Shown: one piece after another, positions 1,709 to 24,478 of the stretch
How the letters are laid out: each line of letters begins with the position of its first letter
Position numbering within the stretch: position 1 is the first letter of the stretch
DNA from: Arcobacter sp. UBA7394
GTDB lineage: Bacteria > Campylobacterota > Campylobacteria > Campylobacterales > Arcobacteraceae
Direction: 5' to 3'
Length of the DNA stretch: 25,636 bases
Assembly (NCBI GenBank): GCA_002470185.1
Contig: DKNG01000139.1
Span: 2,780-28,415 of the forward strand
The notes under the pieces: generated by a model
What the model was told of the DNA's origin: nothing
Databases searched by the model: none
The model's input: the letters and a program-made list of their open reading frames with translations, nothing else
Position numbers and translations under genes: made by a program

Positions 1709-1732
1709 AGAAGAGAACTAAATCTCCTCTTT
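1707..1732. terminator. Hairpin terminator between the GNAT and dlp2 genes
   Basis: AAAGAAGAGA (1707-1716) and TCTCCTCTTT (1723-1732) form a 10-bp stem with a six-base loop. Read on the minus strand the one imperfect pair is a G-U wobble, on the plus strand it is an A-C mismatch, so it should work better for the minus-strand dlp operon. The stop codon of dlp2 lies in the loop. Confidence 0.6.
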
Positions 1733-3751: not shown

Positions 3752-6102
3752 TAGTTTAATCCTTTTACATTAGAAATAACTGTGTCTAGTTTTTTAATCT
3801 TTTTATGAATATCAATTGACATTGAAGCTCTATTTTCATTGTTTTGCTCAAATGAACCAATTTGATTTTGTAGTATCTCTTCATCATTTATCATTTTTTG
3901 TTCAAAGGCTTGAAGTGGTGCATTTAATGTAGCAAAGAATGATTCAATTAAAAGGTTTGAAACTTTATTTGCTTTTGATTTAATATCTTCTTCAATGCTT
4001 TTGAATTGGTCTTTAACAAAAGATTCAATTTCTCTATCTAATTCATTTATTTTATTAGCTTTAGATTTTGATACAGCACTTATTACTTGATTTATTAAAA
4101 CTTCATTGTTACCTGTTAAGAATCCAGCTTTAAAGTCATCTTGGAAGAATCCTCTTGCATCAAAGTTATCATTTTTATGCCCAATTGAGAATCCAAAGTC
4201 ATGATACTTTTGCTCACATTGTTCACCAATTGTTTGAGATTTTTTAATAAACTTATATCTATAGTCTCTAATTACATCAATAATTCCATCTTTAATTGCA
4301 GTTTCAACAATTACTTTAATTCTTGAATTTTCTGGTCTTTTTTTAGTTTTTTCAAAAGAGTATCTTACATCTGAAATAACTCTTTGTTTTATTACATTTT
4401 GAAGCTCGATTAATTCACTCTCAACAAATGTTTCAAGTGACTCAATATAGTTTTTAGCATCATTTTTATAATAAATAATATCTTCTTTCATTGCTAGGAA
4501 AATTCTATCATTTACAGCTTTTTTCTTATTAAACTCTTCTAATTCAACTTCTAATTCTTCTTTAGATTTTGATAATAGTTTTAGTTCATAGTTTAAAGAT
4601 TGTGCTTCTTTTTCTATAGTTTTAATTACTTGAGATTTTCCAGATTGAATAATCAATTCACCTTTTTGTGAATTTGAGCCAAATAATGTTTCATTTAAAT
4701 AATTTTCAATCTCTAAGATACCAGTATCTTCAATAGTAAATCCAGCATCTAATGCTTCTTGTTCTCTACCTGTTCTATGTAATAACGCCATTTTTCCAGA
4801 GATAGGAATAAACTTGATAGTTTTTAGAATATAGTCAAGTTGAGAATCTTTATTTTGTGCTTTTAGTTGTCTCTCAATTGATGATTTTGTATATTTAATT
4901 ACTTCATCTAATTGTTCTTTAGAAACTGTATCAGCTCTTGTAATTACAACTAATAGTTTTGAAATATTTTGATATAAAAGTGCATCAATAATAAATTCAA
5001 CATCTTTTAATGTAGCACTTTGAGATACGTTCATTAAGTGAAGCATCATATCACAAGCGGAGATATACTCTTTTGTAATTTCTTCTCTTTGAATAACTGG
5101 ATCATCTAATCCTGGAGTATCAACTATTTCAATTCCATCTGATAAGAAATCTAAGTTTGAACCTAATTCAACATATTTAACTAAGTTACATTTTTTTCCA
5201 CTAGCCTCTGCTGATGTGTACGAAGATAAATCATTAATATCAACTTCATCATATCTAGACTCAGGTTTAATATATGAGTTTAATTCACTACCAAAAATCT
5301 TATTAGTTTCATTAACATAATCTCTCATAGATTCTAGTTCATCTGCTGATTTTACAATTCTATCCCATTCACTTTTATTCCAGTAAAATACTTTTGCATT
5401 TTCAGTAGGGTTATGTTTTACAATTGTTAAGTTTGCAGTTTCAGGAACAACAGCTGAACCTAATATTTCTCTTCCCATTAATGCATTAAGCATTGTTGAT
5501 TTACCAGCGTTCATAACACCCGTAATTCCAATTGAGAATTTTTGATTATTTAAATAATTACTTGTTTCATCTAAATCTTCAATAATTTTTTCATTAGAAG
5601 ATTCTTCTTTTAACTCTTTGATAATATCTTCTAATGAAGATTTTAATTCTTTGAATGATGATTTATTTGCATCATCCTCAATTACTTGTTCTGTCATATC
5701 AATTTCATCAAGTAGGTTAAGTTCTTGATGGTCAAATAACGAAATTAATTTATCATAGTTTTCAATATTTAATATTTTATTTTCTTTTAAATAATCAAAA
5801 GAATCATGTAAAGTATCAACATGTGATTTTGCTTGGTTGTTTTCAATACACTCAACTATATTATGCTGTAAGTGATTTAACTCAGCAATATTACTTGGTG
5901 TTTTTACATTAAGTTGTTGACAAAATGTTTTAAAAGATGTAAGTGGTAAAAATTTTTCATAATTTTTTCTAGTGGCACTTAAAATCAATGCATAAATTGA
6001 AAATGTCGTTTCTGTGATATTCGTATCAATTGGTTCAACATCTAAATTCTGTTCAAATGTAATCCCATGATATAGTAAAAAGTAGTCGTTTGCTAAGCTC
6101 AT
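3751..6102 (-). CDS. Dynamin-like GTPase, first of a pair (DLP1-like)
   Basis: The 783-residue protein has an N-terminal helical region of about 185 residues before the GTPase domain. G1 is GVMNAGKST (195-203), G3 is DTPG (328-331), and the G4 position reads TRAD (388-391) instead of the usual N/TKxD. A long charged, coiled-coil-like region follows (about 500-560), then a helical C-terminus; I see no certain transmembrane helix, so membrane contact would come from an amphipathic paddle. The start has AGGGAG five bases upstream. The neighbour dlp2 overlaps by one base. Position next to frdCAB and length make it the likely counterpart of C. jejuni Cj0411 (DLP1). A membrane-remodelling or tethering role is inferred from that homologue. 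Confidence 0.88.
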   Translation of the reverse strand: MSLANDYFLLYHGITFEQNLDVEPIDTNITETTFSIYALILSATRKNYEKFLPLTSFKTFCQQLNVKTPSNIAELNHLQHNIVECIENNQAKSHVDTLHDSFDYLKENKILNIENYDKLISLFDHQELNLLDEIDMTEQVIEDDANKSSFKELKSSLEDIIKELKEESSNEKIIEDLDETSNYLNNQKFSIGITGVMNAGKSTMLNALMGREILGSAVVPETANLTIVKHNPTENAKVFYWNKSEWDRIVKSADELESMRDYVNETNKIFGSELNSYIKPESRYDEVDINDLSSYTSAEASGKKCNLVKYVELGSNLDFLSDGIEIVDTPGLDDPVIQREEITKEYISACDMMLHLMNVSQSATLKDVEFIIDALLYQNISKLLVVITRADTVSKEQLDEVIKYTKSSIERQLKAQNKDSQLDYILKTIKFIPISGKMALLHRTGREQEALDAGFTIEDTGILEIENYLNETLFGSNSQKGELIIQSGKSQVIKTIEKEAQSLNYELKLLSKSKEELEVELEEFNKKKAVNDRIFLAMKEDIIYYKNDAKNYIESLETFVESELIELQNVIKQRVISDVRYSFEKTKKRPENSRIKVIVETAIKDGIIDVIRDYRYKFIKKSQTIGEQCEQKYHDFGFSIGHKNDNFDARGFFQDDFKAGFLTGNNEVLINQVISAVSKSKANKINELDREIESFVKDQFKSIEEDIKSKANKVSNLLIESFFATLNAPLQAFEQKMINDEEILQNQIGSFEQNNENRASMSIDIHKKIKKLDTVISNVKGLN

Positions 6103-9905: not shown

Positions 9906-9932
9906 TAGACTGTGTGAATTAGTAACAGTCTA
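9906..9932 (-). terminator. Intrinsic terminator of the nuo operon
   Basis: TAGACTGT (9906-9913) and ACAGTCTA (9925-9932) form an 8-bp stem with an 11-base loop. On the minus strand the stem is followed by AATTAATTTTTTCTTTT, a good U-rich tail. The stop codon of nuoN lies in the upstream arm. Confidence 0.7.
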
Positions 9933-11450
9933 TTTTATAAATAATGATTGTACTGCTGTTTGAGCAAGTATAATAATTTGGTCAATATTTAATGCTGGGA
10001 TAAAGAATACAATTGCTGAACCAACCCCACCTAAAACAGTCAAGATTGCAACAAAGGCAATTGCATAAGTTGAAACTCTTTTATCATTGAATTCAACAGA
10101 TATACATTCTTGTTTTGTTGGGTAGAAATACATAACTGCAATTAGTTTAAAGTAGTAGTAAACTGACACAATTGTTGCAAATACTGCTAAGACAGTTAAT
10201 CCTGCATATCCTGCATTAATTGCTTCTGTGAATACATAAAACTTACCAATAAACCCAATTGTTGATGGAATACCAGCAAGAGAGAATAAGAAAATTGTCA
10301 TCATTGCTGCTAAAAATGGTCTCTCTTTTGCTAAACCTTTGAAGTCATCATAAGTAACTCTTACATTTGTTTCAGAGATAATATGTGATGCAAGACCAAA
10401 TGCTCCAAGTGCAGATAAAAGATAAGCAATTAAATAGAACATTGTTGCATAAGCAGATTCAATGTTTACAATTTGTCCATCTTTGTAACTTAATGCTATA
10501 AATGCTAATAATAAGTAACCAGTATGCACAATTGAAGAAGCCGCTAGCATTCTTTTTACAATTTTTTGTGTTACAGCTAACCATGTACCAAATACTAAAG
10601 TAAATACAATAATTACTGAAATAATTGTGTCCCAGAAATCAAGAGTTATTCCGAAGTCTTGTAAAAATGCTCTAAGGAAAAATGAGAATATAGCAATTTT
10701 AAATGTTGATGCCATATACGCAGTAATAACCATTGGTGCACCTCTATATACATCAAGTACCCAAGATTGGAATGGAAATGCAGCAATTTTGAAAAGAAAT
10801 GTAAATAGGATTAATGTTAATCCAATATATACTAAAATCATTTGATCATCAGATGCTGAATTTATAAATACAGATAATTCACTTAAGTTTGTAGTTGCTG
10901 ATGCACCATAAACTAAAACTACACCTAATAGGTAAAAGGCTCCAATAAATGAACCTAATACTAAATATTTAAATATTGCTTCAACTCTTTTTGAATCTTC
11001 AGTGTTATATCCAACCATAATATAAACTGCAAAAGAAGCAATTTCTAAAGCAATATATGCTGTAACTAATTCATTTGAATATCCTAATAACATCATTCCA
11101 AATAGTGCAAATAATAAAATTGAGAAAAACTCGCCTTTAAAATATGATCTATGCTGGAAATAATGTTCACCAATTAATAGTGTAAGTATTGTTCCCGCAA
11201 TTAATAAAATGTTGAAGAAATTTGAAAAAGAATCAAATATTAATACATTATTTAATAAATCATTATATGGTTGAACTGAATATGCTTCACCAATTTGTGA
11301 TAATGAAAATCCAAATGCAATAAATAAGAAAATACAAGAAACAACAATAAAGTTTTTAACTGTAAAACTTTCGTACATACTCATAAACATAAGTACTAAT
11401 GCACCTGTTAATACAGTTAATGCTGGAATTAAATAGATAAATTCACTCAT
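9930..11450 (-). CDS. nuoN: NADH-quinone oxidoreductase subunit N
   Basis: This is a 506-residue, very hydrophobic antiporter-like (Mrp-type) subunit of the complex I membrane arm. The key charged residues of a proton channel are visible: E136 in [10 protein letters not shown] and K221 in [14 protein letters not shown], followed by the second-half helices ([17 protein letters not shown]). It is the last gene of the operon. Its ATG overlaps the nuoM stop by four bases (ATGA). Its stop codon is part of the operon terminator. Length and motifs are normal for NuoN. Confidence 0.95.
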
Positions 11451-12934
11451 TTTGATGCTCCAATATGTAAAATGTCATTTAAGTAATGTGTAACTGTTGG
11501 TTCGAACTTATTAATAAAAACTTCTGGATATAGTCCCATTAGAAATACTAAAATTACCCATGGTGCTAAACCAATAATTTCTTTAATTTTTAAGTCTCTC
11601 ATTTTTAGAACAGGACTTCCCTCTGGTCTATCTTGTAAAATAGCTCTTTGAAACATCCATAACATATACGATGCTCCAATAACAACAGTAGTTGCTGAGA
11701 TATATCCAAGAGTATGATTAAATTCATAAATACCAAAGATAATTAGTAACTCAGAAACAAAACCATTAGTTCCTGGTAATCCAACATTTGCAAATAACAT
11801 AATTGCAAATATAAAAGTTAAAATTGGTGCTTGTTTTGCTATTCCACCTAAGTCTTTAATAGTTTTAAATCCAGTCTCTTCATGAATTAGTCCTACAAGT
11901 AAGAATAATGCACCTGTTGCAATAGCATGAGCAATAATTAAATATAATGCTCCATTGATACCATATTCATTTAGTGAAAAAATACCAGCTGCAATGAAAC
12001 TTAAATGTGATGCTGAAGAGTAAGCAAACATTCTTTTAATATCATCTTGCATAAGTGCTGCGATTCCAAAATAAACTAAACCAAATAATCCAATTGCTAC
12101 AAAATATACTGAGAATTCAATATAAATTTCTGGGAAAATAGGAATCATAAATCTTACGATTGCATAAACACCAAGTTTAGCCATTATTGAAGATAATAAG
12201 AAAACTGCACCTGTAGGAGCATTTTTATATGTTTCCATAATCCATGTATGAAGAGGAAAAATAGGAATTTTAATTGCAAAAGCTGCAAGGAAACCAAGGA
12301 ATAACCATACTTTTGTATTATAATCAATTGTAGTTATTTTCATTAGCTCATTATAAGCAAATGACCAAGTACCAAATTCAGCATGGTAAGCAACACCTAA
12401 GTATAAAATAGCAATGAACATTAATAATGAACCAACCATAGTATAAACTGTTACTTTAATAGTTGTATATACCTTCTCTCCAAAACCGTATGAACCAATC
12501 ATTAAGAATACTGGTAATAACATTACTTCCCAGAAGAAATAGAATAATACAACATCAAGTGATAATAATGTTCCTGTTACACCAGTTTGAACTAATAACA
12601 TATTAATCCAGTAACCTTTAGTTCTTCCTTCCCATAATAATAAATAAGAAGTTGGAATTAAGATTGCAATCATCATTAAAATAGTTAAAGAAAAACCATC
12701 TAAACCTACATAATAATTAATACCATAAGTTTCAATCCAAGGTACATTTGTTACAAACTGCATTCCTTCTCCAGGAATGAACTCAATATAAATCTTTAGT
12801 ACAAGAGCTAAAATAACTGTAGTAGTCAAAAAGGCAATATTTCTGATTGTATTAACATCCCTAGTTGTAAGCATTAAACCAAATGCAACAATTGCAGGTA
12901 AAAATATAATAAACGAAAGTATATCTGAACTCAT
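11447..12934 (-). CDS. nuoM: NADH-quinone oxidoreductase subunit M
   Basis: This is a 495-residue antiporter-like membrane subunit, one of three proton-pumping modules. E136 in [17 protein letters not shown] corresponds to the essential glutamate of helix 5, and K222 in [14 protein letters not shown] to the helix 7 lysine. The motif [18 protein letters not shown] (here [14 protein letters not shown]) marks the second half. Start at 12934 is one base after the nuoL stop; its own stop overlaps nuoN. Normal length for the family. Confidence 0.95.
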
Positions 12935-12935
12935 A

Positions 12936-14822
12936 CTATAATCCTAAAGTAGTTAATAAATAGATAAACACACAAGTCATTCCTACTAACATGAATAGTG
13001 CGTAAAATCTTACATTTGCATTTTGAATCATTGCAACTTTTTTACCTAAGTTAACAAAACCTTTTGATGAATTCATAATGAATCCATCAATGATTTTGTC
13101 ATCTAAAACTTTATCAATAAATACTGATAGTCTTTTTGAAGTTTTAACAAAAATTGCATCATAAATTTCATCAACATAGAATTTATTTCCAATTAATCCA
13201 ACTTCTTCTTCTGGTTTTGTAACATCAAAGTTTGCATACTTTTTATATGAAACATAAATACCAGCAGCAGCAACTGCAATTGAAGTAATCATTAATATCC
13301 ATTCAGTAGAGTGACTCATATGAATAGTTTTAGAGTTTAATTGTCCTAACCAAGTATCAACTAAATGCTCTCCACCGAATATTGTTGGTAAGTTTAAGAA
13401 CCCAGCCCCAATTGCTCCAATTGCTAATATTAGTAATGGAATTGTAATTGTTTTAGATGTATATGTATATTGTGATTTATGTTTTGTTGGTGCAATGAAA
13501 ATAATAAAATACATTCTAAACATGTAAAATGCTGTTAAAAATGCTGTTCCTAATGCAATTGCCCAAATTAAATATTCACCTTCTTGGAATGCTGCTGCTA
13601 AGATTGCATCTTTTGAGAAGAAACCAGAGAATGGTGGTATACCTGAAATTGCTATAACTCCAACTAAGAACGTTGCTCCAATAATAGGAAGTTGAGCTCT
13701 ATGTTGTGCAATCTTAAAGATATTTTGTTCATGGTGAAGTGCTATAATAATACCACCAGCACCCATGAATAACATGGCTTTAAAGAATGCATGTGTAAAT
13801 ACATGGAATAGTCCAGTTGAATAAAAACCAAGACCAACAGCAATAAACATATATCCTAATTGACTCATTGTTGAATAAGCAAGGATTTTTTTAATGTCTG
13901 TTTGTCTTGTTGCAATTACTGCTGCAAATAGTGCAGATATTGCTCCAATGTATGCAATGAATAATCCAATCTCTTCAATTCCTGAATATAAGAAGTGGAA
14001 TCTTGCAACCATATAAACACCAGCTGTTACCATAGTAGCCGCGTGAATAAGTGCTGAAATTGGTGTAGGTCCTGCCATCGCATCAGGAAGCCATACATAT
14101 AATGGAACCTGTGCTGATTTCCCCATAGCTCCTACAAATAATAAGAATCCAGAAAGGATTAATAATTCATTTGATGCATTGGAAATATTAGCTTCAATAC
14201 TTCCAAATGATAAATCAACTTCTCCTAATGCGAAGAATAAAGTTACAACTCCTAGTAAGAAACCAAAATCTCCAACTCTATTTGCAATAAATGCTTTATT
14301 CGCTGCAATAATATTTTCAGATTTTCCATAATAGAACTTAATTAGTAAATATGAACAAACTCCAACACCTTCCCATCCAATGAAAAGAATAATTGGGTTA
14401 TCTGCTAATACTAAAATTAACATTGAAGCTAAGAATAAATTGAAATAAGCAAAGAACTTACCGAAACCATTATCACCTCTCATATAACCAATGGCATAGA
14501 TATGAATTAACCATCCAACAAATGTTACAAACATAGTCATAAAAATTGATAAGTTATCGCCAAGCAATGCCATATCGATATTTAGTTTATCAATATTGAT
14601 CCATGTAAATAACTGTTGCTTAAAAATAATCCCTTCATCTTTCATTCTTAAGAATAAAGATAAAGTGATTAAAAAAGATATAAAAGGAGTAATACAACCA
14701 ATTAATGCAAAAGTTAATTCAGATATTTTTTCTTTTTTTATGTGATATAAATATAAACCACCTGATAAAACAGCACCTAATAAAGGAGCTAAAATTATCC
14801 ATACAAGTAGTGATGTACTCAT
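12936..14822 (-). CDS. nuoL: NADH-quinone oxidoreductase subunit L
   Basis: This 628-residue protein is the distal antiporter-like subunit of the membrane arm, with the long C-terminal extension that includes the lateral helix (final ~150 residues, ending in a hydrophobic anchor near 605-625). E151 in LFIGWEGVGVCSYLL and K235 in GAMGKSAQVPLYVW correspond to the conserved pumping Glu and Lys of NuoL. The overlap with nuoK is four bases (ATGA). Nothing suggests truncation. Confidence 0.96.
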   Translation of the reverse strand: MSTSLLVWIILAPLLGAVLSGGLYLYHIKKEKISELTFALIGCITPFISFLITLSLFLRMKDEGIIFKQQLFTWINIDKLNIDMALLGDNLSIFMTMFVTFVGWLIHIYAIGYMRGDNGFGKFFAYFNLFLASMLILVLADNPIILFIGWEGVGVCSYLLIKFYYGKSENIIAANKAFIANRVGDFGFLLGVVTLFFALGEVDLSFGSIEANISNASNELLILSGFLLFVGAMGKSAQVPLYVWLPDAMAGPTPISALIHAATMVTAGVYMVARFHFLYSGIEEIGLFIAYIGAISALFAAVIATRQTDIKKILAYSTMSQLGYMFIAVGLGFYSTGLFHVFTHAFFKAMLFMGAGGIIIALHHEQNIFKIAQHRAQLPIIGATFLVGVIAISGIPPFSGFFSKDAILAAAFQEGEYLIWAIALGTAFLTAFYMFRMYFIIFIAPTKHKSQYTYTSKTITIPLLILAIGAIGAGFLNLPTIFGGEHLVDTWLGQLNSKTIHMSHSTEWILMITSIAVAAAGIYVSYKKYANFDVTKPEEEVGLIGNKFYVDEIYDAIFVKTSKRLSVFIDKVLDDKIIDGFIMNSSKGFVNLGKKVAMIQNANVRFYALFMLVGMTCVFIYLLTTLGL

Positions 14823-15133
14823 GATTTTTCCCCTTGTGTAAGTGTTGTAAAGATATCAGTATCAAGAGATTTTCTTGATCTATATAAAAGAATAATTACT
14901 GATAAGAAAATTGCAGCTTCAGCAGCGGCAATTGCAATTACCATAATTGTTACAACTTGTGGATCCATATCAAAATGATACCTAGCAAATGTTACTAGAA
15001 ATAAGTTTATACCATTTAACATCATTTCAATAGACATATAAATTACAAAGACATTTCTTCTTGCAATTACACCTATTACTCCAATAGAAAATAGAGCCAT
15101 TGATACAAAGGCATATGATGTTAATGAGATCAT
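14819..15133 (-). CDS. nuoK: NADH-quinone oxidoreductase subunit K
   Basis: This 104-residue protein has three transmembrane helices. It carries the two membrane glutamates of the E-channel at exactly the numbers known from E. coli NuoK: E36 (YMSIEMMLNGINL) and E72 (IAAAEAAIFLSV). It sits between nuoJ and nuoL, overlapping each by four bases, which implies coupled translation. Confidence 0.96.
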   Translation of the reverse strand: MISLTSYAFVSMALFSIGVIGVIARRNVFVIYMSIEMMLNGINLFLVTFARYHFDMDPQVVTIMVIAIAAAEAAIFLSVIILLYRSRKSLDTDIFTTLTQGEKS

Positions 15134-15657
15134 GAATCATCTCCTGTGTTTGTGATTTTTGATGTTCTTTTTTTAGCTAATACTACTGAACCAATTAATG
15201 CAACTAATAATAGAATTGAGATTAACTCAAATGCTAATAACCAGTTATTATATAATTGGATACCTATTGGTTTTATATCTCCAAAATCACTATTTGTAAT
15301 ATTGAAATCTTTTTCAGGAAGTTTAGCAACTGCTTTTAATATTAAGATATTTAAAGGAATCATTACAACTGCACCTAAAGCAATTAATGTATATTTTCTT
15401 GGTTCTTTTGGTAAATCTTCTTCTTTAATATTTAAGAACATTAAAATAAAAAGAATTAGAGTCATAATAGCCCCTGCATAAACAATAATTTGAACTAGGA
15501 AAAGGAAAGTGGCATTAAGTAATGCAAACATTCCTGCTACACTTAACATTGAGATTAAAACCCCAAGCGCGCTGTACATTGGATTTGCATACACAATCAT
15601 AGCAATTGCACCAGATATTGCTGAAAAAGCTAATGCAATAAAAATTATATCAATCAT
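15130..15657 (-). CDS. nuoJ: NADH-quinone oxidoreductase subunit J
   Basis: The 175-residue membrane subunit has about five hydrophobic helices. The conserved third-helix region reads FLFLVQIIVYAGAIMTLILF, where the VYAGA(I/V)M stretch, including Tyr and Gly, is the pi-bulge helix of ND6/NuoJ. The charged C-terminal tail (KKRTSKITNTGDDS) is cytoplasmic. Its ATG lies inside the end of nuoI (eight-base overlap ATGATTGA). Confidence 0.95.
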   Translation of the reverse strand: MIDIIFIALAFSAISGAIAMIVYANPMYSALGVLISMLSVAGMFALLNATFLFLVQIIVYAGAIMTLILFILMFLNIKEEDLPKEPRKYTLIALGAVVMIPLNILILKAVAKLPEKDFNITNSDFGDIKPIGIQLYNNWLLAFELISILLLVALIGSVVLAKKRTSKITNTGDDS

Positions 15658-16156
15658 TATTTAAATCCTTTGATCTTTCGTTTGCCATTAAAGCTTTTTT
15701 ATCTAACACAAACTCTTCTCTAGAACTTGCTGTAAATGAGAAGATACCTGTATCCATTCTAATTGCATCACATGGACAAGCTTCAACACAATAACCACAG
15801 AATACACACTCTAATAAATCAATTTTGAACTCTTTAGGTCGTTTCTCATCATGATCATCAAATCTCTCTTCTGCTTCAATAAAAATACATTCAGCAGGAC
15901 ATGCAGTTGCACACATATAACAAGCAACACACTTTTCAGTTTCATCTTCCCATTTTGTAAGTCTGTGAACACCTCTATATCTTTCATTAAGATCATCAGG
16001 TTGAACTTCTGGGTATTGCATTGTTTTTAGGTTATCCACATCTTTTAAGTTTTTTACAAAGTGTTTAAAAGTTGTTTTCATTCCCCCTGCAATAGCAGGT
16101 AGATATAATTTGTCTTTAAATGATTTACCGTATCTTGGTACTACTTTAATTCCCAT
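15650..16156 (-). CDS. nuoI: NADH-quinone oxidoreductase subunit I (2 x 4Fe-4S)
   Basis: This 168-residue ferredoxin-like subunit carries clusters N6a and N6b, which lead electrons to N2 in NuoB. Two CX2CX2CX3CP motifs are seen: C76, C79, C82, C86 (CVACYMCATACP) and C117, C120, C123, C127 (CVFCGYCVEACP). The start is one base after the nuoH stop (TAATATG), and the end overlaps nuoJ. Normal length. Confidence 0.96.
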   Translation of the reverse strand: MGIKVVPRYGKSFKDKLYLPAIAGGMKTTFKHFVKNLKDVDNLKTMQYPEVQPDDLNERYRGVHRLTKWEDETEKCVACYMCATACPAECIFIEAEERFDDHDEKRPKEFKIDLLECVFCGYCVEACPCDAIRMDTGIFSFTASSREEFVLDKKALMANERSKDLNND

Positions 16157-16157
16157 A

Positions 16158-17435
16158 TTAACTTCCTACTACAATAAATGTTGCAGTTACAACAATATTT
16201 AAAAGTGCTAATGGTAATAACACTTTCCACCCTAACATTTGTAATTGGTCGTATCTGAATCTAAGAACAGTCCATCTAACCCAAATATAAACAAATGCCA
16301 TCATAAAAAACTTAACTAAGAATGTACCAACTTGAAGAACAGCAGTTACAATATTAATTCCATTAGTTCCTAATCCTGTGATTAAGAATATAGCTAGAAG
16401 TCCAACAATTCCAGCACATATAGCCCAGAATGCTGTAGTTAAAATCTTTGTTTCTTTTTCTCTTCTTAAATCCCCATCACCTTTTGTTTTATTATTCTTT
16501 TTCATCCATCTTGTAAAAATGAAGATTTTAATTGGTAATAAAATCATAATAGCAACAATTACATAATTAATATTACTTTGAATTGTTTGAGTATCTAACC
16601 AAGGAATTTGATATCCACCAAAGAATAAAGTAACAATAATAGCTGATGATGCAGACATTGCAGCATATTCACCAACTTGGAAAAGACCAAATCTCATTGC
16701 TGAATATTCAGTATGGTAACCTGCAACGATTTCTGATTCTCCTTCTGCAATATCAAAAGGTGCTCTATTTGTTTCTGCAAAAGCACAAACAATAAAAATT
16801 ACTGCTGCTAGTGGTTGAATAAAGATTCCCCACATTGGAACAACACCCCAAAATACACCAGCTTGCGCATTCACCATATCTGTTAAGTGAATTGATCCAT
16901 AAGATAAAAGCATTGAAATAATTGCTAATGCCATTGCGGCTTCATATGAAATTACTTGAGCTGAAGCTCTAATAGAACCTAATAGCCCATATTTATTTTG
17001 TGATGAATAACCACCTAAAATAATTCCATATATTGCAAGACCCGCAAAAGCTAGGAACCACATTATCCCTAATTCATTGGGAACAGCTTGCATAATAAAT
17101 GATTTCCCATCAATTACTAAATTATCTGCAAAGGGAATAGTCGCAAATGTCAAAAATGAACATAAGAATACAATTGCAGGTGCTATAGTAAAGAAAAACT
17201 TGTATTTAATATGGCTAGGTGTAAAATCTTCTTTAAAAACAAGTTTTAACATATCTGCAAAACTTTGAATTAGTCCACCAAGTCTTAAAGGACCAATATT
17301 ACATCTATTAGGACCAGTTCTATCTTGCATAAATGCAGATATTCTTCTTTCCCACCAAACAAAAAGTGGTGTCAATCCAACTGCTAATACAACAGCTAGT
17401 AATATATTTACAGCAATAATTATTCCCGTACTCAT
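16158..17435 (-). CDS. nuoH: NADH-quinone oxidoreductase subunit H, enlarged form
   Basis: The product is 425 residues, against about 325-335 in most bacteria. The quinone-chamber signatures are intact: ERRISAFMQDRTGPNR (29-44) and the acidic loop RAPFDIAEGESEIVAGYHTE (224-243). The final conserved helix and its tail (FVYIWVRWTVLRFRYDQLQ, 381-399) are also present. The extra length lies between FFGGYQIPWL (271-280) and that last helix region (~366). It contains two hydrophobic stretches (about 290-309 and 333-353) joined by a strongly basic/acidic loop (RWMKKNNKTKGDGDLRREKE). In a standard NuoH about 10-20 residues occupy this place. The gene follows nuoG with a four-base overlap. Confidence 0.94.
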   Translation of the reverse strand: MSTGIIIAVNILLAVVLAVGLTPLFVWWERRISAFMQDRTGPNRCNIGPLRLGGLIQSFADMLKLVFKEDFTPSHIKYKFFFTIAPAIVFLCSFLTFATIPFADNLVIDGKSFIMQAVPNELGIMWFLAFAGLAIYGIILGGYSSQNKYGLLGSIRASAQVISYEAAMALAIISMLLSYGSIHLTDMVNAQAGVFWGVVPMWGIFIQPLAAVIFIVCAFAETNRAPFDIAEGESEIVAGYHTEYSAMRFGLFQVGEYAAMSASSAIIVTLFFGGYQIPWLDTQTIQSNINYVIVAIMILLPIKIFIFTRWMKKNNKTKGDGDLRREKETKILTTAFWAICAGIVGLLAIFLITGLGTNGINIVTAVLQVGTFLVKFFMMAFVYIWVRWTVLRFRYDQLQMLGWKVLLPLALLNIVVTATFIVVGS

Positions 17436-18868
17436 AGAGTTCCTTTACTAATCATTTCTTTTAGATGTTCAATTACAGATGTAATAGTTTCCATTGGATT
17501 ATTTTTGTTCATTTGAGAAATTACTCTTTGTTTAATACCATCGCAGTTGATATATGTTCCTGATTTCTCATAGAATGATGCAACTGGAATAGCAATATTT
17601 GATTTACTTAGAGTTAAACAATTATGACTAAATAGTGAAATAACAGTTTTACCTTCTAATAATTGTGAGTTTTCTTCAAAGCATGTTGATTCAAGAATTA
17701 TTACTAGTTGAGATTTTTCTAAAGACTCTTTAAAATAAGATTCTTCTTCATTAACTTCTAGTTCTTTAAATGCTGCTCTATTGGCACTTTTGTCGCTTTT
17801 TCTCAAGTAATCATCACCAAATGATTCATCATAGGTATCTGGTGAGTAACCACTAATACTAGCATTTAATTTTTCTGCTAAATTTTTAAGATTTAACATT
17901 TCTTCGTAAGAAAGATTTGGACTTAATACAAATAAGATATCTTTTTTAGTTGATAACTCTTTAAACATATTTGTTATTGTATTACTAAGATTTGTTGTTT
18001 CCTTATTTAATAGAGGAGTTTCAAATCTATTTTGATTTTCATTTTCGTAAGATAGTCTACCTTCATCACACATAAACCAACCATTTACAGATTTATTTGC
18101 ACGTGGTCTAAATCTATGAATTTGATCATCTTTATATTTTTCTTTTCTATGATCAACACTTATATTACATCCTTTTGAACAGCCATTACATATAGCATCA
18201 AATGTTTCTAAAAACCAAACTCTTTGTTTGAATCTAAAATCTTTTGAAGTTAATGCTCCAACTGGACATAAATCAACAACATTCATAGCATAAGGATTAT
18301 ATAGGGGTCTTCCTGGAAAAATTCCAATAGTAGAGTGATCTGTTCTATCAATTACTCCAAGTTCACTTGTTTTAGTAATGTCTTTACAGAATCTTACACA
18401 TCTTGTACAAAGTACACATCTTTCTTCATCAAGCATTACATTTGCGCCTAAATCGACTCTTTTACGATGCTTTGTTTTATTATCTACATTTACTCTTGAT
18501 TCATAAAATCCAGATTCCATGTAATAATCTTGTAATTTACATTCTCCTGCTTGGTCACATGTAGGACAATCAATTGGATGGTTAATAAGTTGAAGTTCTA
18601 AAATATCTCGTCTTACTTTCTCAATATTTTCACCCTTAGTTCTTACAACCATACCATCTTTGATAGGTGTATCACATGCAATTTGAGGTCTTTTTTGACC
18701 TTCAATTGCTACCATACACATTCTACAGTTACCATCTTTACCTAGTGCTTGGTGATAACAAAAATGAGGAATATGGATATTCTCATCCAATAATTTATCA
18801 ATTAACAAGCTTCCTTTGGAAGCTTGCATTTGTGCGCCATTGACTGTGATTTCTACCATCTCGCTCAT
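17432..18868 (-). CDS. nuoG: NADH-quinone oxidoreductase subunit G, compact form
   Basis: The product is 478 residues, whereas typical NuoG has 680-910. The Fe-S region is complete. [2Fe-2S] N1b is bound by C37, C48, C51 and C65. [4Fe-4S] N5 is bound by H97, C101, C104 and C110. N4 is bound by C151, C154, C157 and C201. An N7-type CNGCSKGC motif gives C227, C230, C234 and C267. After that, only about 210 residues remain in place of the large molybdopterin-oxidoreductase-like domain; part of the fold (FVLSPNLSYEEM, and the late segment IPVASFYEKSGTYINCDG) survives. The frame is intact and the stop overlaps the nuoH start, so this is a genuine short form. RBS AAGGGGAT precedes the start. Confidence 0.92.
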   Translation of the reverse strand: MSEMVEITVNGAQMQASKGSLLIDKLLDENIHIPHFCYHQALGKDGNCRMCMVAIEGQKRPQIACDTPIKDGMVVRTKGENIEKVRRDILELQLINHPIDCPTCDQAGECKLQDYYMESGFYESRVNVDNKTKHRKRVDLGANVMLDEERCVLCTRCVRFCKDITKTSELGVIDRTDHSTIGIFPGRPLYNPYAMNVVDLCPVGALTSKDFRFKQRVWFLETFDAICNGCSKGCNISVDHRKEKYKDDQIHRFRPRANKSVNGWFMCDEGRLSYENENQNRFETPLLNKETTNLSNTITNMFKELSTKKDILFVLSPNLSYEEMLNLKNLAEKLNASISGYSPDTYDESFGDDYLRKSDKSANRAAFKELEVNEEESYFKESLEKSQLVIILESTCFEENSQLLEGKTVISLFSHNCLTLSKSNIAIPVASFYEKSGTYINCDGIKQRVISQMNKNNPMETITSVIEHLKEMISKGTL

Positions 18869-18901: not shown

Positions 18902-20188
18902 TTATTTACCTGTATATAATTGTCTTGGTCTTGCAATTTTGTGTTTTGGATCTTGTTTTAACTCTGACCATTGTGAAATCCAACCTGGAGTTCTTCCGAT
19001 TACGAAGATAGGTGTGAACATTTCAACTGGAATTTTAAGTGCAGTTAAAATTACTCCAGAATAGAAGTCAATATTTGGATATAATCCTCTTTCTTTGAAG
19101 TAATCATCATTTAATGCAGCTTCTTCAACAGCAGCAGCTACATCTAATAATTTAGAATCAAGATTTAATTCTTCTCTTAGTTTATCTTGTAAACCTTTTA
19201 AAGTTTCAGCTCTTGGATCTCTATTTTTATATACTCTATGTCCGAATCCCATTAATCTAAATGGATCGTTTCTATCTTTTGCTTTAGCAATATAAGTAGG
19301 TACATTTTTAACATCACCAATTAATCTTAATTGATCCATTACTTTTTCATTAGCACCACCATGAGCTGATCCCCATAATGCAGCAATACCAGAAGAAATA
19401 GCAACATAAGGGTGAGCTTCAGTAGAACCAACGTTTCTAACTGTTGTTGTAGAAGCATTTTGTTCGTGATCAGCATGTAAAGTAAAGATTGCATCCATTG
19501 CATCAACTTCAACTTGTTTGATTTCTTCATTCATACCGTTACCTAAGTATTTCATGTTTCCACCTGGATATGCTCTTAACATATATAAGAAGTTTTCAGT
19601 GAAATATCTATTTACATCTGGGTAAATTAAAGGTGTCCCAATTGATTTTCTATAAGCCATTGCAGCAATTGTTGGCATTTTAGCAACAATTCTTCTTCTC
19701 ATAGTTTTGAATTCAGCTTCATCTTCCATATTTAAGTGATCTTTATAGAAAGTTGAAAGTGCCATAGTAGCTGCACCCATAGTTGCCATTGGATGTGCAC
19801 CATCTGGGAATGCATCAAAAATTTTAATTAAACCTTCATTTAAGAATGATCTATGTCTAATTTCTAAATCGAAATTTTTAGAAGCTTGCTCACTTGGTAA
19901 GTCACCTCTCATTAGTAAGTAACATACATCTAAATAAGACTTTTTACCAGCTAAATCAGCAATATCATAACCTCTGTATCTTAACTCTGAGTTTTCACCG
20001 TCAATAAATGTAATTTTTGATTCACAAGATGCAGTTGAAGTATAACCTGGGTCATAAGTAAACATACCTGAATCTCTGTAGAATGAACTAATATCAACTA
20101 CACTTGGACCTCTTGTCCCATCTATAATATTGTATTCGTAGGCTTTACCATTTCTATTGTCAGTAAGTGTCATAGTATTTTTTGCCAT
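18902..20188 (-). CDS. gltA: Citrate synthase
   Basis: This 428-residue hexameric-type (type II, GltA) citrate synthase condenses acetyl-CoA and oxaloacetate. Catalytic residues H276 (GSAHGGAN), H317 (FGHRVYKNRDPR) and D374 (NIDFYSG) match E. coli H264, H305 and D362, with a constant offset of 12. The HADHEQNASTTTVR segment (238-251) is typical. It lies inside the nuo operon between nuoF and nuoG. It has a strong AAAGGAG RBS and 53 bases of A-rich, hairpin-free spacer after nuoF, and 33 bases before nuoG. No terminator separates it, so it is probably cotranscribed with complex I. Confidence 0.96.
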   Translation of the reverse strand: MAKNTMTLTDNRNGKAYEYNIIDGTRGPSVVDISSFYRDSGMFTYDPGYTSTASCESKITFIDGENSELRYRGYDIADLAGKKSYLDVCYLLMRGDLPSEQASKNFDLEIRHRSFLNEGLIKIFDAFPDGAHPMATMGAATMALSTFYKDHLNMEDEAEFKTMRRRIVAKMPTIAAMAYRKSIGTPLIYPDVNRYFTENFLYMLRAYPGGNMKYLGNGMNEEIKQVEVDAMDAIFTLHADHEQNASTTTVRNVGSTEAHPYVAISSGIAALWGSAHGGANEKVMDQLRLIGDVKNVPTYIAKAKDRNDPFRLMGFGHRVYKNRDPRAETLKGLQDKLREELNLDSKLLDVAAAVEEAALNDDYFKERGLYPNIDFYSGVILTALKIPVEMFTPIFVIGRTPGWISQWSELKQDPKHKIARPRQLYTGK

Positions 20189-20241: not shown

Positions 20242-21507
20242 TTATTTTTTGAAATATGTTTCAAATTCATGTGCATATTTTTCAACAATACTTTGAATTA
20301 TGTCTTTTACAGCTGGTGCAAATACACAAACTGTTTTTCCGTTCATTGTGCCACATACATCAAGTATTGTATTTAAATCTTCACTAGAACCTTCGCCTTC
20401 AAGAATCTTATGAATAATTTTATCAATCCATCCACAACCCTCTCGGCAAGGTGTACATTGACCACATGATTCATGATGATAAAACTCAATTAAGTTTTTA
20501 GCTACATCAACCATTGATACACCTTCAGGAATGATCATCATTCCACCTGTCCCTAAAGTTGAACCAATATCCCACATAGATTCATAATCTAAGTAGGCTT
20601 TTTCAACTTCTTCAGCAGTTAATATAGGACATGAAGCACCACCTGGGATTACAGCTTTAAGCTTTAATCCATTTTTCATACCACCACCTATTTTTTCGAT
20701 AACATCAGTCATTTTGTTACCGTAGGCTAGTTCGTATACACCAGGGTTATTAACTGGACCACTCATTGCAAATAGCATAGTGCCAGGTGCTTTCTCTGTA
20801 CCATATTTTGTATATGATTCATAACCATTTAATACAATGTTTGGAACTGAAGCAATTGTTTCAACATTGTTTACAGTTGCAGGATTTCCAAAGAACCATT
20901 CACACTCTTTACCATGTGGTTTCAGTCTTGGATGTCCTCTTTTACCTTCGATAGATTCAATAAGTGCTGATTTCTCACCACAAATATATGCTCCTCCACC
21001 TCTGTGAACTGTAATATTCATTCTATAATCATATTTATTCATGATTTTATCACCAATAATACCGTGCTCATAGGCTTCTTCTATTGCAGCATTTAATCTA
21101 TCAATAAAAAATTTATATTCTCCTCTAATGTAGATAAAACAATCATGTGCTCCAATTGCATAAGAAGAACAGATAATTCCTTCAATCAAAAGGTGTGGAT
21201 CGTATTCAAAAATTTGTCTATCTTTAAAAGTTCCTGGTTCTGATTCATCCCCATTAGCAATTAAATATCTAGGTCTTTCATCAACAGGAGGCATAAGTTT
21301 CCACTTAGGCCCACAAGCAGCTCCACCACCACCTTTTCCTCTAAGACCACTTTTACATACTTCTTCTGTTACTTCATCAGGAGTCATTGAAAAAAGTTTG
21401 TCAATTGATTCATATCTTCCATTTTTTAAAGCAACATCAAGTTTATGAGAATCTGGAATGTCAAAGTTTTTACTTACAATTTTTACAATCATGTCGTTTG
21501 AACTCAT
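20242..21507 (-). CDS. nuoF: NADH-quinone oxidoreductase subunit F (FMN, N3 cluster), variant nucleotide site
   Basis: The 421-residue protein is the electron-input subunit of complex I. The FMN-side acidic segment is NGDESEPGTFKDR (85-97), and the C-terminal N3 cluster uses C348, C351, C354 (ESCGQCTPCREG) and C394. The overall order is normal. Two conserved nucleotide-site motifs differ, however. The glycine loop usually read GRGGAGFPTGLKW is GKGGGGAACGPKW (57-69), and the usual GEETAL is GEKSAL (177-182). This may change which donor is oxidised (see findings). It overlaps nuoE by four bases. Confidence 0.94.
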   Translation of the reverse strand: MSSNDMIVKIVSKNFDIPDSHKLDVALKNGRYESIDKLFSMTPDEVTEEVCKSGLRGKGGGGAACGPKWKLMPPVDERPRYLIANGDESEPGTFKDRQIFEYDPHLLIEGIICSSYAIGAHDCFIYIRGEYKFFIDRLNAAIEEAYEHGIIGDKIMNKYDYRMNITVHRGGGAYICGEKSALIESIEGKRGHPRLKPHGKECEWFFGNPATVNNVETIASVPNIVLNGYESYTKYGTEKAPGTMLFAMSGPVNNPGVYELAYGNKMTDVIEKIGGGMKNGLKLKAVIPGGASCPILTAEEVEKAYLDYESMWDIGSTLGTGGMMIIPEGVSMVDVAKNLIEFYHHESCGQCTPCREGCGWIDKIIHKILEGEGSSEDLNTILDVCGTMNGKTVCVFAPAVKDIIQSIVEKYAHEFETYFKK

Positions 21508-21983
21508 TTTCTACACCCCTTAATAATATTTTCTAATTTTTCAATAGTCATATTTTCATGGTATGTATTGTTTAGTGCAATCATTGGTGCACCTCCACAA
21601 GCCCCTTGACATTCAACTTCTGTGAAATGGAATTTACCGTCTTCAGAAGTTTGTCCTGGCTCAATATTTAAAGTCTCTTTTATAAATTTTTTAAGTTCAG
21701 GAGCACCCATTACCATACAAGATAATGTTTTACATAACTCAATATGGTAAGTTCCAATTGGTTTTAGATTGAACATTGTATAAAATGTTGCAAAAGAGTG
21801 CACTTCAATTGGTGATTTATTTAATCTATTAGCCATAAAAATCATAGCTTCTGGTGAAACCCATCCCTCTTGCTCTTGTACTAACCAAAGTCCTGGAAGC
21901 ATCATTGCATCAGAATTTGGATATTTTTTTAGAATTCTTTGAAACTCTTTTTCATTTTCTTCTGTATATGTAAATGTTTTCAT
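21504..21983 (-). CDS. nuoE: NADH-quinone oxidoreductase subunit E (2Fe-2S)
   Basis: The 159-residue thioredoxin-fold subunit holds cluster N1a through C84, C89 (CKTLSC) and C125, C129 (CQGACGGAP). An N-terminal helical region with LPGLWLVQEQEGWVSPEAM is typical of the family. It partners NuoF at the tip of the peripheral arm. Its ATG overlaps the nuoCD stop (TAATG), and its stop overlaps nuoF (ATGA). Campylobacter and Helicobacter have unrelated small proteins in this place, so a real NuoE is a lineage marker. Confidence 0.95.
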   Translation of the reverse strand: MKTFTYTEENEKEFQRILKKYPNSDAMMLPGLWLVQEQEGWVSPEAMIFMANRLNKSPIEVHSFATFYTMFNLKPIGTYHIELCKTLSCMVMGAPELKKFIKETLNIEPGQTSEDGKFHFTEVECQGACGGAPMIALNNTYHENMTIEKLENIIKGCRK

Positions 21984-23617
21984 TATCTATCAAACTCCCC
22001 AGCAATAAAGTTCATACTTGCCATTGTAACAACAGCATCAGCAAGCATTCCACCCTCTACGATGTTGGCATAAGCACCAAGTGAATAAAAACAAGGTGGT
22101 CTACATTTTACTTTGTATGGAGTACCTGTTCCATCACTAGTAATAAAGAATCCTAATTCTCCATTTCCAGCTTCTGTTGATGAATAATATTCACCCTTTG
22201 GTACTTTGATACCTTCAAAAGTAAGTTTAAATTGATTCATTAAACCTTCAATATTTCCATAAACATCTTTTTTAGATGGAAGTAAAATACCTGGCGCATC
22301 AACATTGATAGCACCATCTGGTAACTCTTTCATAGCTTGTTTAATGATTTTTACTGATTGTCTCATCTCTTCAAATCTACACATTACTCTGTCATATACA
22401 TCACCATGTGATCCTACAACAATATCAAAATCAAAGTTTTCATACCCGTAATAAGGTTTATCTTTTCTAAGGTCATGAGGAATTCCAGTTGATCTTAAGT
22501 TTGGTCCAGAAATTCCTGCATTAATAGCAAAATCAGATGTAATTACACCCACATCTTGTGTTCTATCATGGAAAATCTTATTTCTAGCAACTAAACTTAA
22601 TGCATCATCAATAGCTATTTCTACATCTTTTAGTACTTCTGCTAAATCTTCATCAAATCCATCATATAAATCGAATTCTAATCCACCGATTCTTGTATAT
22701 GTATTTGTAAGTCTAGCTCCTGTAAGTTTTGATAATAAATCATAAGCCTTATCTCTTGGTGCAAATAAGTACCAGAAGTTAGTAAGTCCACCTAAATCTA
22801 CCATATTTGCAGCATTACATACTAGGTGATCAATAATTCTTGATAACTCACCAATAATGATTCTAATAAATTTAGCTCTTTGTGTAATATCGATATTTAA
22901 CATCTCTTCAACAGCTTTTGAATAACCAATGTTATTTAAAATAGCAGAACAGTAGTTTAATCTATCTGTGTATGGAATTACTTGTGAATAAGTATGATTC
23001 TCACAAGATTTTTCAAAACCTCTATGTAAGTAACCAATTTCAGTAACACAAGCAGTAATTGTTTCACCTTCCATAGCTACAAAGTTTCTAATAGTACCAT
23101 GTGAAGCTGGATGAGAAGGACCAATATTTAATAACATTAAATCATTGATTTCTTCTTGTGAATAACCTTTTGAAGTCAAAAGGGGTAACATTTCATCCAT
23201 TAAATCTTCTGTCTCTGTACAGATTTGACCTTTTGTAATTGGATAATCTTTTCTTAAAGGATAACCAAAAAATTGATGGTGATTTAAAAGTCTTTTTAGA
23301 TTCTTGTGACCTTTGAATTTTATTCCATATTGATCATAAGCTTCACGCTCACCCCAATCAGCTGCTTTATATAAGTCTGAAATAGAATCAACTTCTAATG
23401 TAGTATCGTCTATATACGCTTTAACTGAAATTTGATTTTTGAAACTTCCATCTCTTAATATATATACTACAGCAAATCTAGAAGGAGTTACATCTGGATA
23501 TTTTGAATAATCAACAACTGTAACATCAAGTAAAATTGAGTAGTTCTCTTCATTTTTCAGTTTTGAAATTGCAGATTTAATTTCGTTTGAATCAATTAGC
23601 ATGTCACATTTAAGCAT
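21983..23617 (-). CDS. nuoCD: NADH-quinone oxidoreductase fused subunit C/D
   Basis: The 544-residue fusion has a NuoC (30 kDa) domain in residues 1 to ~130 (WGEREAYDQYGIKFKGHKNL, then RKDYPI at 122-127) and a NuoD (49 kDa) domain from ~160. NuoD residues lining the quinone site are present: GPSHPASHG (H169, H173) and YTDRLNY (Y216, Y222). The NLRSTGIPHDLR and FDIVVGSHGDVYDR stretches are typical. The linker (~130-160) is short and acidic. The ATG overlaps the nuoB stop by eight bases (ATGCTTAA). A second in-frame ATG lies five codons later, without a better RBS. C and D are separate in many bacteria and fused in E. coli. Confidence 0.95.
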   Translation of the reverse strand: MLKCDMLIDSNEIKSAISKLKNEENYSILLDVTVVDYSKYPDVTPSRFAVVYILRDGSFKNQISVKAYIDDTTLEVDSISDLYKAADWGEREAYDQYGIKFKGHKNLKRLLNHHQFFGYPLRKDYPITKGQICTETEDLMDEMLPLLTSKGYSQEEINDLMLLNIGPSHPASHGTIRNFVAMEGETITACVTEIGYLHRGFEKSCENHTYSQVIPYTDRLNYCSAILNNIGYSKAVEEMLNIDITQRAKFIRIIIGELSRIIDHLVCNAANMVDLGGLTNFWYLFAPRDKAYDLLSKLTGARLTNTYTRIGGLEFDLYDGFDEDLAEVLKDVEIAIDDALSLVARNKIFHDRTQDVGVITSDFAINAGISGPNLRSTGIPHDLRKDKPYYGYENFDFDIVVGSHGDVYDRVMCRFEEMRQSVKIIKQAMKELPDGAINVDAPGILLPSKKDVYGNIEGLMNQFKLTFEGIKVPKGEYYSSTEAGNGELGFFITSDGTGTPYKVKCRPPCFYSLGAYANIVEGGMLADAVVTMASMNFIAGEFDR

Positions 23618-24125
23618 CTAAGAATCCTTTGTAGTCTTTAACTCTATCTTTGATAATTGATTCATCATTAGCTTTTTCTTGAATTCTCATAATAGCATCA
23701 AGTACAGCTTCTGGCCTTGGTGGACAACCTGCCACATATTCATCTACTGGAATAATTTCATCTATTCCTTGTAGTGTTGTGTAGTTATCGTAAAATCCAC
23801 CTGAACAAGCACATGCGCCCATTGAAATAACCCATTTAGGCTCACACATTTGTTCATATATTTTTTTTAAAATAGGTGCTTGTTTATAAGAAATAGTTCC
23901 AGCAACTATAAGTAAATCAGCTTGTCTTGGAGAAAATCTTACAACTTCTGCTCCAAATCTAGATAAATCATATTTTGCACCAGCAACTGACATGAATTCA
24001 ATACCACAACATGCAGTACCAAATACCATAGGCCACAGTGAGTATGATCTACCCCAGTTAATTGCGTGATCAAGTTTAGTCGTAACTATTGAATCACCAA
24101 GTTTTGATTCTGCGCCTAATCCCAT
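23610..24125 (-). CDS. nuoB: NADH-quinone oxidoreductase subunit B (N2 cluster)
   Basis: The 171-residue subunit binds the terminal cluster N2, which reduces quinone. Tandem C39 and C40 (GTACCGIEFM), C105 (GACACSGG) and C134 (VAGCPPRPE) show the same spacing as Thermus Nqo6 (C45, C46, C111, C140). It starts ten bases inside the end of nuoA, with AAGG upstream, and ends inside the start of nuoCD. Confidence 0.96.
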   Translation of the reverse strand: MGLGAESKLGDSIVTTKLDHAINWGRSYSLWPMVFGTACCGIEFMSVAGAKYDLSRFGAEVVRFSPRQADLLIVAGTISYKQAPILKKIYEQMCEPKWVISMGACACSGGFYDNYTTLQGIDEIIPVDEYVAGCPPRPEAVLDAIMRIQEKANDESIIKDRVKDYKGFLDA

Positions 24126-24478
24126 GATAGTGCCTTTTTCTTATAAATATAAATTAAGCCTGAAAATAAAAGTCCCATGAACATGAACATTTCAAATAGT
24201 CCAAGATATCCTAGTTCTTTAATATTTACAGCCCACGGAAACATAAATATGATTTCCACATCAAACAGAACAAATAAGATTGCAACTAAATAAAACTTAA
24301 TTGAGAATCTAATATTTGTATTACCAACTGGGTTAGATACACCACTTTCATATACTGTATTTTTCATAATCGCATTTTCATTTTTAGGACCAATGAATCT
24401 TGTTAAAGTGAATACTCCAACTAAGATAAGTCCAATTGCGACAAAAATAACAGATGCAAGAATTAATTCTGTTGACAT
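24116..24478 (-). CDS. nuoA: NADH-quinone oxidoreductase subunit A
   Basis: This 120-residue membrane subunit has three helices (about 6-27, 62-82, 92-111). The cytoplasmic loop contains YESG (43-46), and helix 2 contains FDVEIIFMFPWA with D73 and E75, the acidic residues of the E-channel. It is the first gene of the nuo operon; AGGATA precedes the ATG. It overlaps nuoB by ten bases. Confidence 0.95.
   Translation of the reverse strand: MSTELILASVIFVAIGLILVGVFTLTRFIGPKNENAIMKNTVYESGVSNPVGNTNIRFSIKFYLVAILFVLFDVEIIFMFPWAVNIKELGYLGLFEMFMFMGLLFSGLIYIYKKKALSWD

Follow-up and report, generated by a model that had tools for sequence, protein, structure and literature searches.

A rewritten adenosine half-site in the complex I subunit NuoF of Campylobacterota, with possible use of NADPH

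Changes at E183 of Escherichia coli NuoF reportedly alter the choice between NADH and NADPH, and the engineered E183 variants, attributed to Morina in 2011, are said to act as an NADPH:ubiquinone oxidoreductase. In the Thermus subunit, F78 and F205 presumably also line the adenine site. In Aquifex NuoF, four residues make contact through water: E95 and D103 with the nicotinamide amide, E97 with the adjoining ribose and E184 with an oxygen of a phosphate (PMC6560083). In the FdsB formate dehydrogenase, Glu259 and Lys157 bond ribose oxygens and the adenine stacks on Phe152, which is compared there with Phe70 of Nqo1; the same source states that, in complex I, Lys202 moves away from Glu184 to bind NADH (PMC7171172). 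FdsB Glu259 is read here as corresponding to Thermus E185. Three Phe are mentioned for the related HydB site in PMC10482914.

Within the Campylobacterota, a review credits A. butzleri with "the canonical nuoEF genes" (PMC6682613), and a proteome paper calls the complex I of S. multivorans "standard", with its NuoEF interacting with NAD+ (PMC4585668). The NuoF variant reported here was not found described in the open-licence literature, a pool that lacks most subscription journals. It is encoded in a window of 25,636 nucleotides (the whole stretch of DNA analysed) from Arcobacter sp. UBA7394, which carries the following complex I and associated genes:

20242..21507, minus strand: nuoF, complex I 51-kDa subunit (421 aa), adenosine-site variant; open reading frame with Complex1_51K, SLBB and NADH_4Fe-4S domains
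21504..21983, minus strand: nuoE (159 aa), with the N1a ligands and the Gly that matches Aquifex G129 both retained
17432..18868, minus strand: nuoG, short form (478 aa), with the N1b, N5, N4 and N7 Cys patterns
18902..20188, minus strand: gltA, citrate synthase, between nuoF and nuoG
21983..24478, minus strand: nuoCD, nuoB and nuoA, the last two named by reading
9930..17435, minus strand: nuoH to nuoN, nuoH by profile and the remaining genes named by reading

All three NuoF domains exceed their Pfam cut-offs, and the protein scores 434.9 bits against NF010120 (above the cut-off of 389) and 494.9 bits against TIGR01959 (below the cut-off of 558.65). Within the nuo operon the gene follows nuoE and precedes nuoG, from which gltA separates it, and the nuo gene set of the window is full, nuoE and nuoF included, unlike the C. 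jejuni type in which these two are replaced.

Several features of the neighbouring genes were also recorded. The placement of gltA between nuoF and nuoG recurs in 72 of 108 variant-nuoF loci with a readable next mapped gene (some loci share a genome) and is absent from L002, L033 and more distant loci. NuoG is short across the clade, with 56 open frames of 443-556 aa (median 479.5), the N1b, N4 and N5 patterns being present in 56/56 and N7 in 54/56. NuoH (16158-17435; 425 aa) likely carries an insertion, because NuoH models match it in two separate stretches and the relatives' open frames that look complete measure about 421-452 aa. At 1718-6102, two adjoining open reading frames (677 and 783 aa) have the appearance of a dynamin-like GTPase pair, by motif reading only.

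The departure of NuoF from the canonical sequence is concentrated in three loops:

21292..21339, minus strand: first altered loop, residues 57-72; R66 (Aquifex) to K58, A to G61, F70 to A63 and F78 to L71, with K75 kept as K68
20962..20988, minus strand: second altered loop, residues 174-182; E185 (Thermus)/E183 (E. coli) to K179, with Y180 and E184 kept as Y174 and E178
20890..20922, minus strand: third altered loop, residues 196-206 (KPHGKECEWFF); KPPFPA..G to KPHGKECEW, F205 to G199 and G210 to W204, with K202 kept as K196

Residues 57-69 read GKGGGGAACGPKW (residue 57 at 21337-21339, residue 69 at 21301-21303) and residues 177-182 read GEKSAL, with the K179 codon at 20971-20973. Both motifs had been singled out by the original prediction, in an interval (20968..21348) that fits them, and both are confirmed; the third segment (residues 196-206) lies outside that interval and had been missed. 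In PDB alignments, three Phe of the Thermus NADH site are replaced (F70 by A63, F78 by L71 and F205 by G199), although L71 is weak evidence on its own, as the E. coli row likewise has Leu there. K179 aligns with Thermus E185 in the same alignments and with E. coli E183 when mapped by count. An aromatic residue, W204, is gained five residues after G199, where the Thermus equivalent is G210, and residues 396-397, past the last N3 Cys, also differ from canonical NuoF. The canonical adenosine contacts (the ribose Glu E185 and the Phe that Thermus has at positions 70 and 205) are thereby absent, and the E. coli E183 position is occupied by a non-acidic residue (K179), as in the engineered NADPH-accepting complex I.

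At the level of sequence, the NADH site has changed on its adenosine side but not on its nicotinamide side. Across Campylobacterota NuoF, E88, E90 and D96 are kept in 361/361 rows and E178, K68 and K196 in 360/360, and the equivalents of Aquifex E95, E97, D103 and E184 and of Thermus K75 and K202 are intact in the window NuoF. The N3 ligands C348, C351, C354 and C394 are invariant (66 rows), and FMN-loop residues are conserved across the variant, so that conservation bears out the claim that the FMN-side and N3 residues remain. In the adjoining nuoE open reading frames, the pattern C-x4-C...C-x-G-x-C is present in 119/119, and a stricter pattern demanding ...CG.AP in 87/119; the Cys and Gly alone, at the N1a switch described in PMC6560083, are kept in all 119. 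With the remaining NADH contacts and both N3 and N1a preserved, variant NuoF most probably still takes a dinucleotide as its substrate.

A search of 397 Campylobacterota genomes returned some match in 190 and a full-length NuoF of the variant type, counted at E < 1e-140, in 81. The 80 rows fetched besides the window all have K at position 179 and no Phe at 199, and position 63 is A (67), G (12) or S (1). An enlarged set of 361 Campylobacterota rows (339 distinct), assembled from the phylum sample, database proteins and loci from genome contigs, was set against 129 comparison rows, of which 9 were hand-picked (C. necator HoxF included) and 120 came from one search seeded with Aquifex NuoF; their named sources include Aquificota, Nitrospirota, Thermodesulfobacteriota and Acidobacteriota, and at most 2 of these rows have gaps at any listed site. 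Position 179 is K in 359 of the 361 rows (R in 1, gap in 1) vs E in 128/128 comparison rows; position 63 is A, G or S in 360/360 vs F in 127/127; position 199 has no Phe, Tyr or Trp in 360 rows (5 have His) vs F or Y in 129/129; and position 204 is W, F or Y in 359/360 vs G in 129/129. Since K stands at position 179 in 319 of the 320 distinct Campylobacterota rows with a letter there (the other being Arg) and in all 80 fetched rows, it is not the product of chance or sequencing error. Alignment against NuoF and HoxF rows, the check attached to the original prediction, found the altered residues in 0/129 comparison rows, and the absence of the variant outside Campylobacterota holds for that set only. 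Eleven sites are at least 90% fixed yet different, and 6 of them fall in two nucleotide loops that make up 49 of 421 positions (hypergeometric 5e-4, with the loops chosen in the light of the finding and of the PDB alignment, a choice that was not blind). Apart from these, the phylum's NuoF-like matches are Hyd-type paralogs (8/22 rows read) and a GltD-like protein that bears an N3-type domain and is matched in its C-terminal part.

In a tree of 68 rows the variant forms one side of a branch with support of 100/100, nested among ordinary NuoF under a midpoint root, and the branch persists with support of 100/99 in a tree of 63 rows from which the motif columns were removed. The clade spans several families, and one ancestral origin of the rewrite would be the simplest reading. 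The half-site is likewise replaced in NuoF of A. vandammei, A. cryaerophilus and A. caeni; a further group, f10, is probably Sulfurospirillaceae. Judging from these relatives, A. butzleri and S. multivorans NuoF are expected to share the variant. The proposal that this subunit represents an intermediate form on the way to the Campylobacter complex lacking NuoE and NuoF does not sit well with a single clade spread over several families, or with the eight NuoEF-less loci read, in which a quite different, GltD-like subunit is found. The view that the changes are hard to reconcile with plain NADH use fared better: the adenosine half-site is rewritten in every variant row examined, which supports the suggestion that it would be difficult to square with a plain NADH site.

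Three further signals were considered and dropped. Low model confidence was taken up as a sign of loop remodelling, the window model having mean pLDDT values of 57, 75 and 63 (residues 171-200), and was abandoned because a control fold of canonical NuoF, built with the same number of alignment rows, gave similar means of 63, 78, 66 and 75 in its residues 161-200. A Cys65-Cys202 pair (21313-21315 and 20902-20904) was considered as a pocket gate; Cys/Cys is found in 191/196 rows at least 72% identical to the window and in 0/165 more distant rows, so the pair marks a lineage and does not belong to the general variant. The idea that acidic carriers dock on a more positively charged surface was rejected, the difference of 0.6 charge units on the loops being too small to build on.

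The electron donors available to these organisms were examined from genome content, with genome handles taken from tables by eye for co-occurrence counts and associations computed without correction for shared descent. The Arcobacteraceae sample comprised 61 genomes, 41 with variant NuoF (the motif read in 24, which are also in the phylum sample, and the other 17 assigned by 60-98% identity) and 20 without. AceE-type pyruvate dehydrogenase, in counts that cover the AceE-type E1 only, was found in 32/397 genomes, and 32/32 of these carry variant NuoF, against 81/397 overall (Fisher p 2e-25, a value that overstates independence because 31/32 AceE genomes belong to one family, Arcobacteraceae; the remaining one, G195, is of another family and has no flavodoxin match). 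Among Arcobacteraceae, AceE was above cut-off in 36/41 genomes with variant NuoF vs 0/20 without. Cells with both AceE and variant NuoF make NADH by pyruvate dehydrogenase and must spend it. AceE is absent from 49/81 variant-NuoF genomes, among them the window's own (86% complete) and its sister G409, which is rated 100% complete and has a 98% identical NuoF.

Other routes for NADH and NADPH vary among these genomes. At E 1e-15, E. coli Ndh had no match in 13/41 variant-NuoF Arcobacteraceae, 12 of which have AceE; with this single query for NDH-2, presence may be over-called and absence is conservative. The NDH-2-like protein of the window genome is of uncertain kind, its best NCBIfam match being TIGR03169, below cut-off. 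PntA was above cut-off in 0/61 Arcobacteraceae, with weak matches in 16, and about a dozen of the 61 genomes encode a PntA relative of 368-388 aa below cut-off that could be either alanine dehydrogenase or a split PntA. Among the 13 genomes with no NDH-2-like match, three, each rated 100% complete (G008, G127 and G187), also have no flavodoxin at E 1e-25 and no PntA match of any kind. Malate dehydrogenase matches at E 1e-3 are present in 58/61 Arcobacteraceae, two of them very weak, and both the window's genome and G008 have malate dehydrogenase together with an NADP-dependent monomeric isocitrate dehydrogenase above cut-off. In loci L162 and L163, malate dehydrogenase directly follows the NADP-dependent isocitrate dehydrogenase gene. 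Malate:quinone oxidoreductase (Mqo) is reported for A. butzleri in PMC2147049, and malate dehydrogenase together with this enzyme could re-oxidise NADH without complex I.

Long-chain flavodoxin, searched with the model TIGR01752 only and counted in the 61-genome table at E 1e-25 or better, is present in 37/41 Arcobacteraceae with variant NuoF vs 8/20 without (p 7e-5); weaker matches in G008 (E 1.3e-5) and G127 (E 7.7e-13, 149 aa) were counted as absent. In the phylum sample it is present in 73/81 variant-NuoF genomes, with no match at E 1e-25 in 8/81, and the window's own genome has two. A strong match to the alpha subunit of 2-oxoacid:acceptor oxidoreductase (E < 1e-100) was found in 55/61 Arcobacteraceae. 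Four genomes (G399, G407, G415 and G421) have only weak matches to this subunit (E 1e-5 to 1e-4), keep variant NuoF and AceE, and all have flavodoxin and an NDH-2-like protein.

The explanation that best accommodates these observations is that the rebuilt adenosine half-site takes NADPH alongside NADH or even in preference to it, an outcome whose chances we put at about even. Variant NuoF would then be an electron-input flavoprotein of complex I that still oxidises a nicotinamide dinucleotide, passing hydride to FMN and electrons on through N3 and NuoG to quinone. Because Lys now occupies the site of the ribose-binding Glu and the Phe that clamp the adenine are gone (W204 perhaps taking their place), the enzyme would no longer keep out the 2'-phosphate. 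Menaquinone could then be supplied, with proton pumping, both by the NADPH that NADP-dependent isocitrate dehydrogenase makes and by the NADH that comes from malate dehydrogenase and, where present, pyruvate dehydrogenase. A non-acidic residue at the E183 site is linked to NADPH use by analogy with the engineered E. coli NuoF, and the exchange of Glu for Lys makes such use plausible; loss of the Phe clamp should weaken binding of any adenine nucleotide, not of NADH alone. A fuller version, held more tentatively, is that the NuoEF complex I of Campylobacterota naturally oxidises NADPH, or both NADPH and NADH, with menaquinone as acceptor and with proton pumping; K179 would read the 2'-phosphate, and one ancestral rewrite would have moved the adenine platform to W204.

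If the enzyme had instead remained specific for NADH, with W204 and its neighbours standing in for the Phe clamp and K179 as a new contact, the invariant nicotinamide-side contacts and the co-occurrence of AceE would be accounted for, as would the donors of A. butzleri, which in PMC6682613 and PMC2147049 are said, partly from genome analysis, to include NADH. This is rather unlikely in our estimate: the change from Glu to Lys at the ribose position takes away the usual NADH-selecting carboxylate, and unchanged selectivity would leave the fixation of the swap in 319/320 distinct rows without an obvious reason. The original prediction favoured a change of donor, and of this the possible use of NADPH stands as plausible from the residue at the E183 position, while the replacement of the nucleotide by flavodoxin or ferredoxin is not favoured. 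Docking of such a carrier over the opened pocket, with direct reduction of FMN and the nucleotide no longer a donor, would agree with the loss of adenosine contacts, the enrichment of long-chain flavodoxin (37/41 vs 8/20) and its presence in most variant-NuoF genomes of the phylum sample, the widespread 2-oxoacid:acceptor oxidoreductase, a slightly more positive net loop charge (mean +3.3 vs +2.7) and the flavodoxin use reported for C. jejuni complex I in PMC4178425. Against it stand the invariant NADH contacts (equivalents of E95, E97, D103, E184, K75 and K202), the 8/81 variant-NuoF genomes with no long-chain flavodoxin match at E 1e-25, the occurrence of variant NuoF in all 32 AceE genomes, and the four genomes that keep NuoF and AceE with weak 2-oxoacid oxidoreductase alpha matches, although flavodoxin is present in all four; taken together, these make the carrier mechanism quite improbable. 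The related HoxEFU is described as working with both ferredoxin and NAD(P)+ (PMC9414918), which suggests that ferredoxin could be used without giving up the adenosine site. Decay of the NuoF site, leaving a mainly structural subunit, would explain the loss of several substrate contacts but is very improbable, because decay would not yield invariant replacements and K58, G61, K179 and the aromatic at 204 are themselves fixed across the clade; the FMN-loop, N3 and N1a features are also kept.

The half-site that chooses between NADH and NADPH is replaced in all 81 phylum-sample genes and in the named relatives, and the assumption that these subunits are "canonical" is in need of a test. A subunit catalogued as a standard NADH dehydrogenase may be capable of working with NADPH. 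Should NADPH be accepted, this would be a natural complex I that couples NADPH oxidation to proton pumping; it would explain how NADPH is spent in bacteria with NADP-linked isocitrate dehydrogenase and without PntA above cut-off, and it would provide a ready residue set for how complex I distinguishes NADH from NADPH. On that view, the engineered E. coli E183 enzymes would have a wild equivalent in the subunits described by reviews as canonical.

Compared with canonical NuoF/Nqo1/NDUFV1 of Thermus, Aquifex, E. coli and Paracoccus, the variant has both the Phe clamp and the ribose Glu replaced and adds the changes R to K58, A to G61 and an aromatic at 204. Paralogs of the Hyd, HoxF and NfnB type share the core fold and loops with the variant, at 36-39% identity to those listed, and in the Campylobacterota Hyd-type paralogs (8/22 rows read) the F70 site is Y or F and the E185 site A or T. 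In L098-L102, L107-L109 and L136, a second NuoF paralog (open frames of 456-583 aa) adjoins small NuoE-like and, mostly, NuoG-like genes; its motifs in 8 rows, L136 excluded, are GDEGDPG, GE(A/T)TA and KPPHL, with Ala or Thr for the ribose Glu. NuoF2 of the Nitrospina NUO-2 complex is, like the variant, a NuoF with a proposed donor change, but is said to lack the FMN site and carry extra clusters, whereas the variant has intact FMN loops and no added clusters (PMC3578206).

The complex I of C. jejuni (Cj1574c/Cj1575c) belongs to the same phylum and has other subunits homologous to those of the window, but NuoE and NuoF are replaced there. In 8/8 NuoEF-less loci read (L137-L144), the nuo cluster encodes an FAD protein that is GltD-like and includes an N3-type domain; its open frames measure 669-726 aa, and GGGFTSMD...LYRR is present in all eight. 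This motif resembles what we take to be the NADPH motif of GltD, and the donor of the complex with this subunit may also be NADPH. The same clusters include two NuoG-like genes. The closest parallel is with the engineered E. coli E183 variants, in which the change falls at the residue aligned with K179 and has the same predicted effect on the choice between NADH and NADPH; the Campylobacterota variant differs from them in being natural, in carrying Lys and in having lost the Phe clamp as well.
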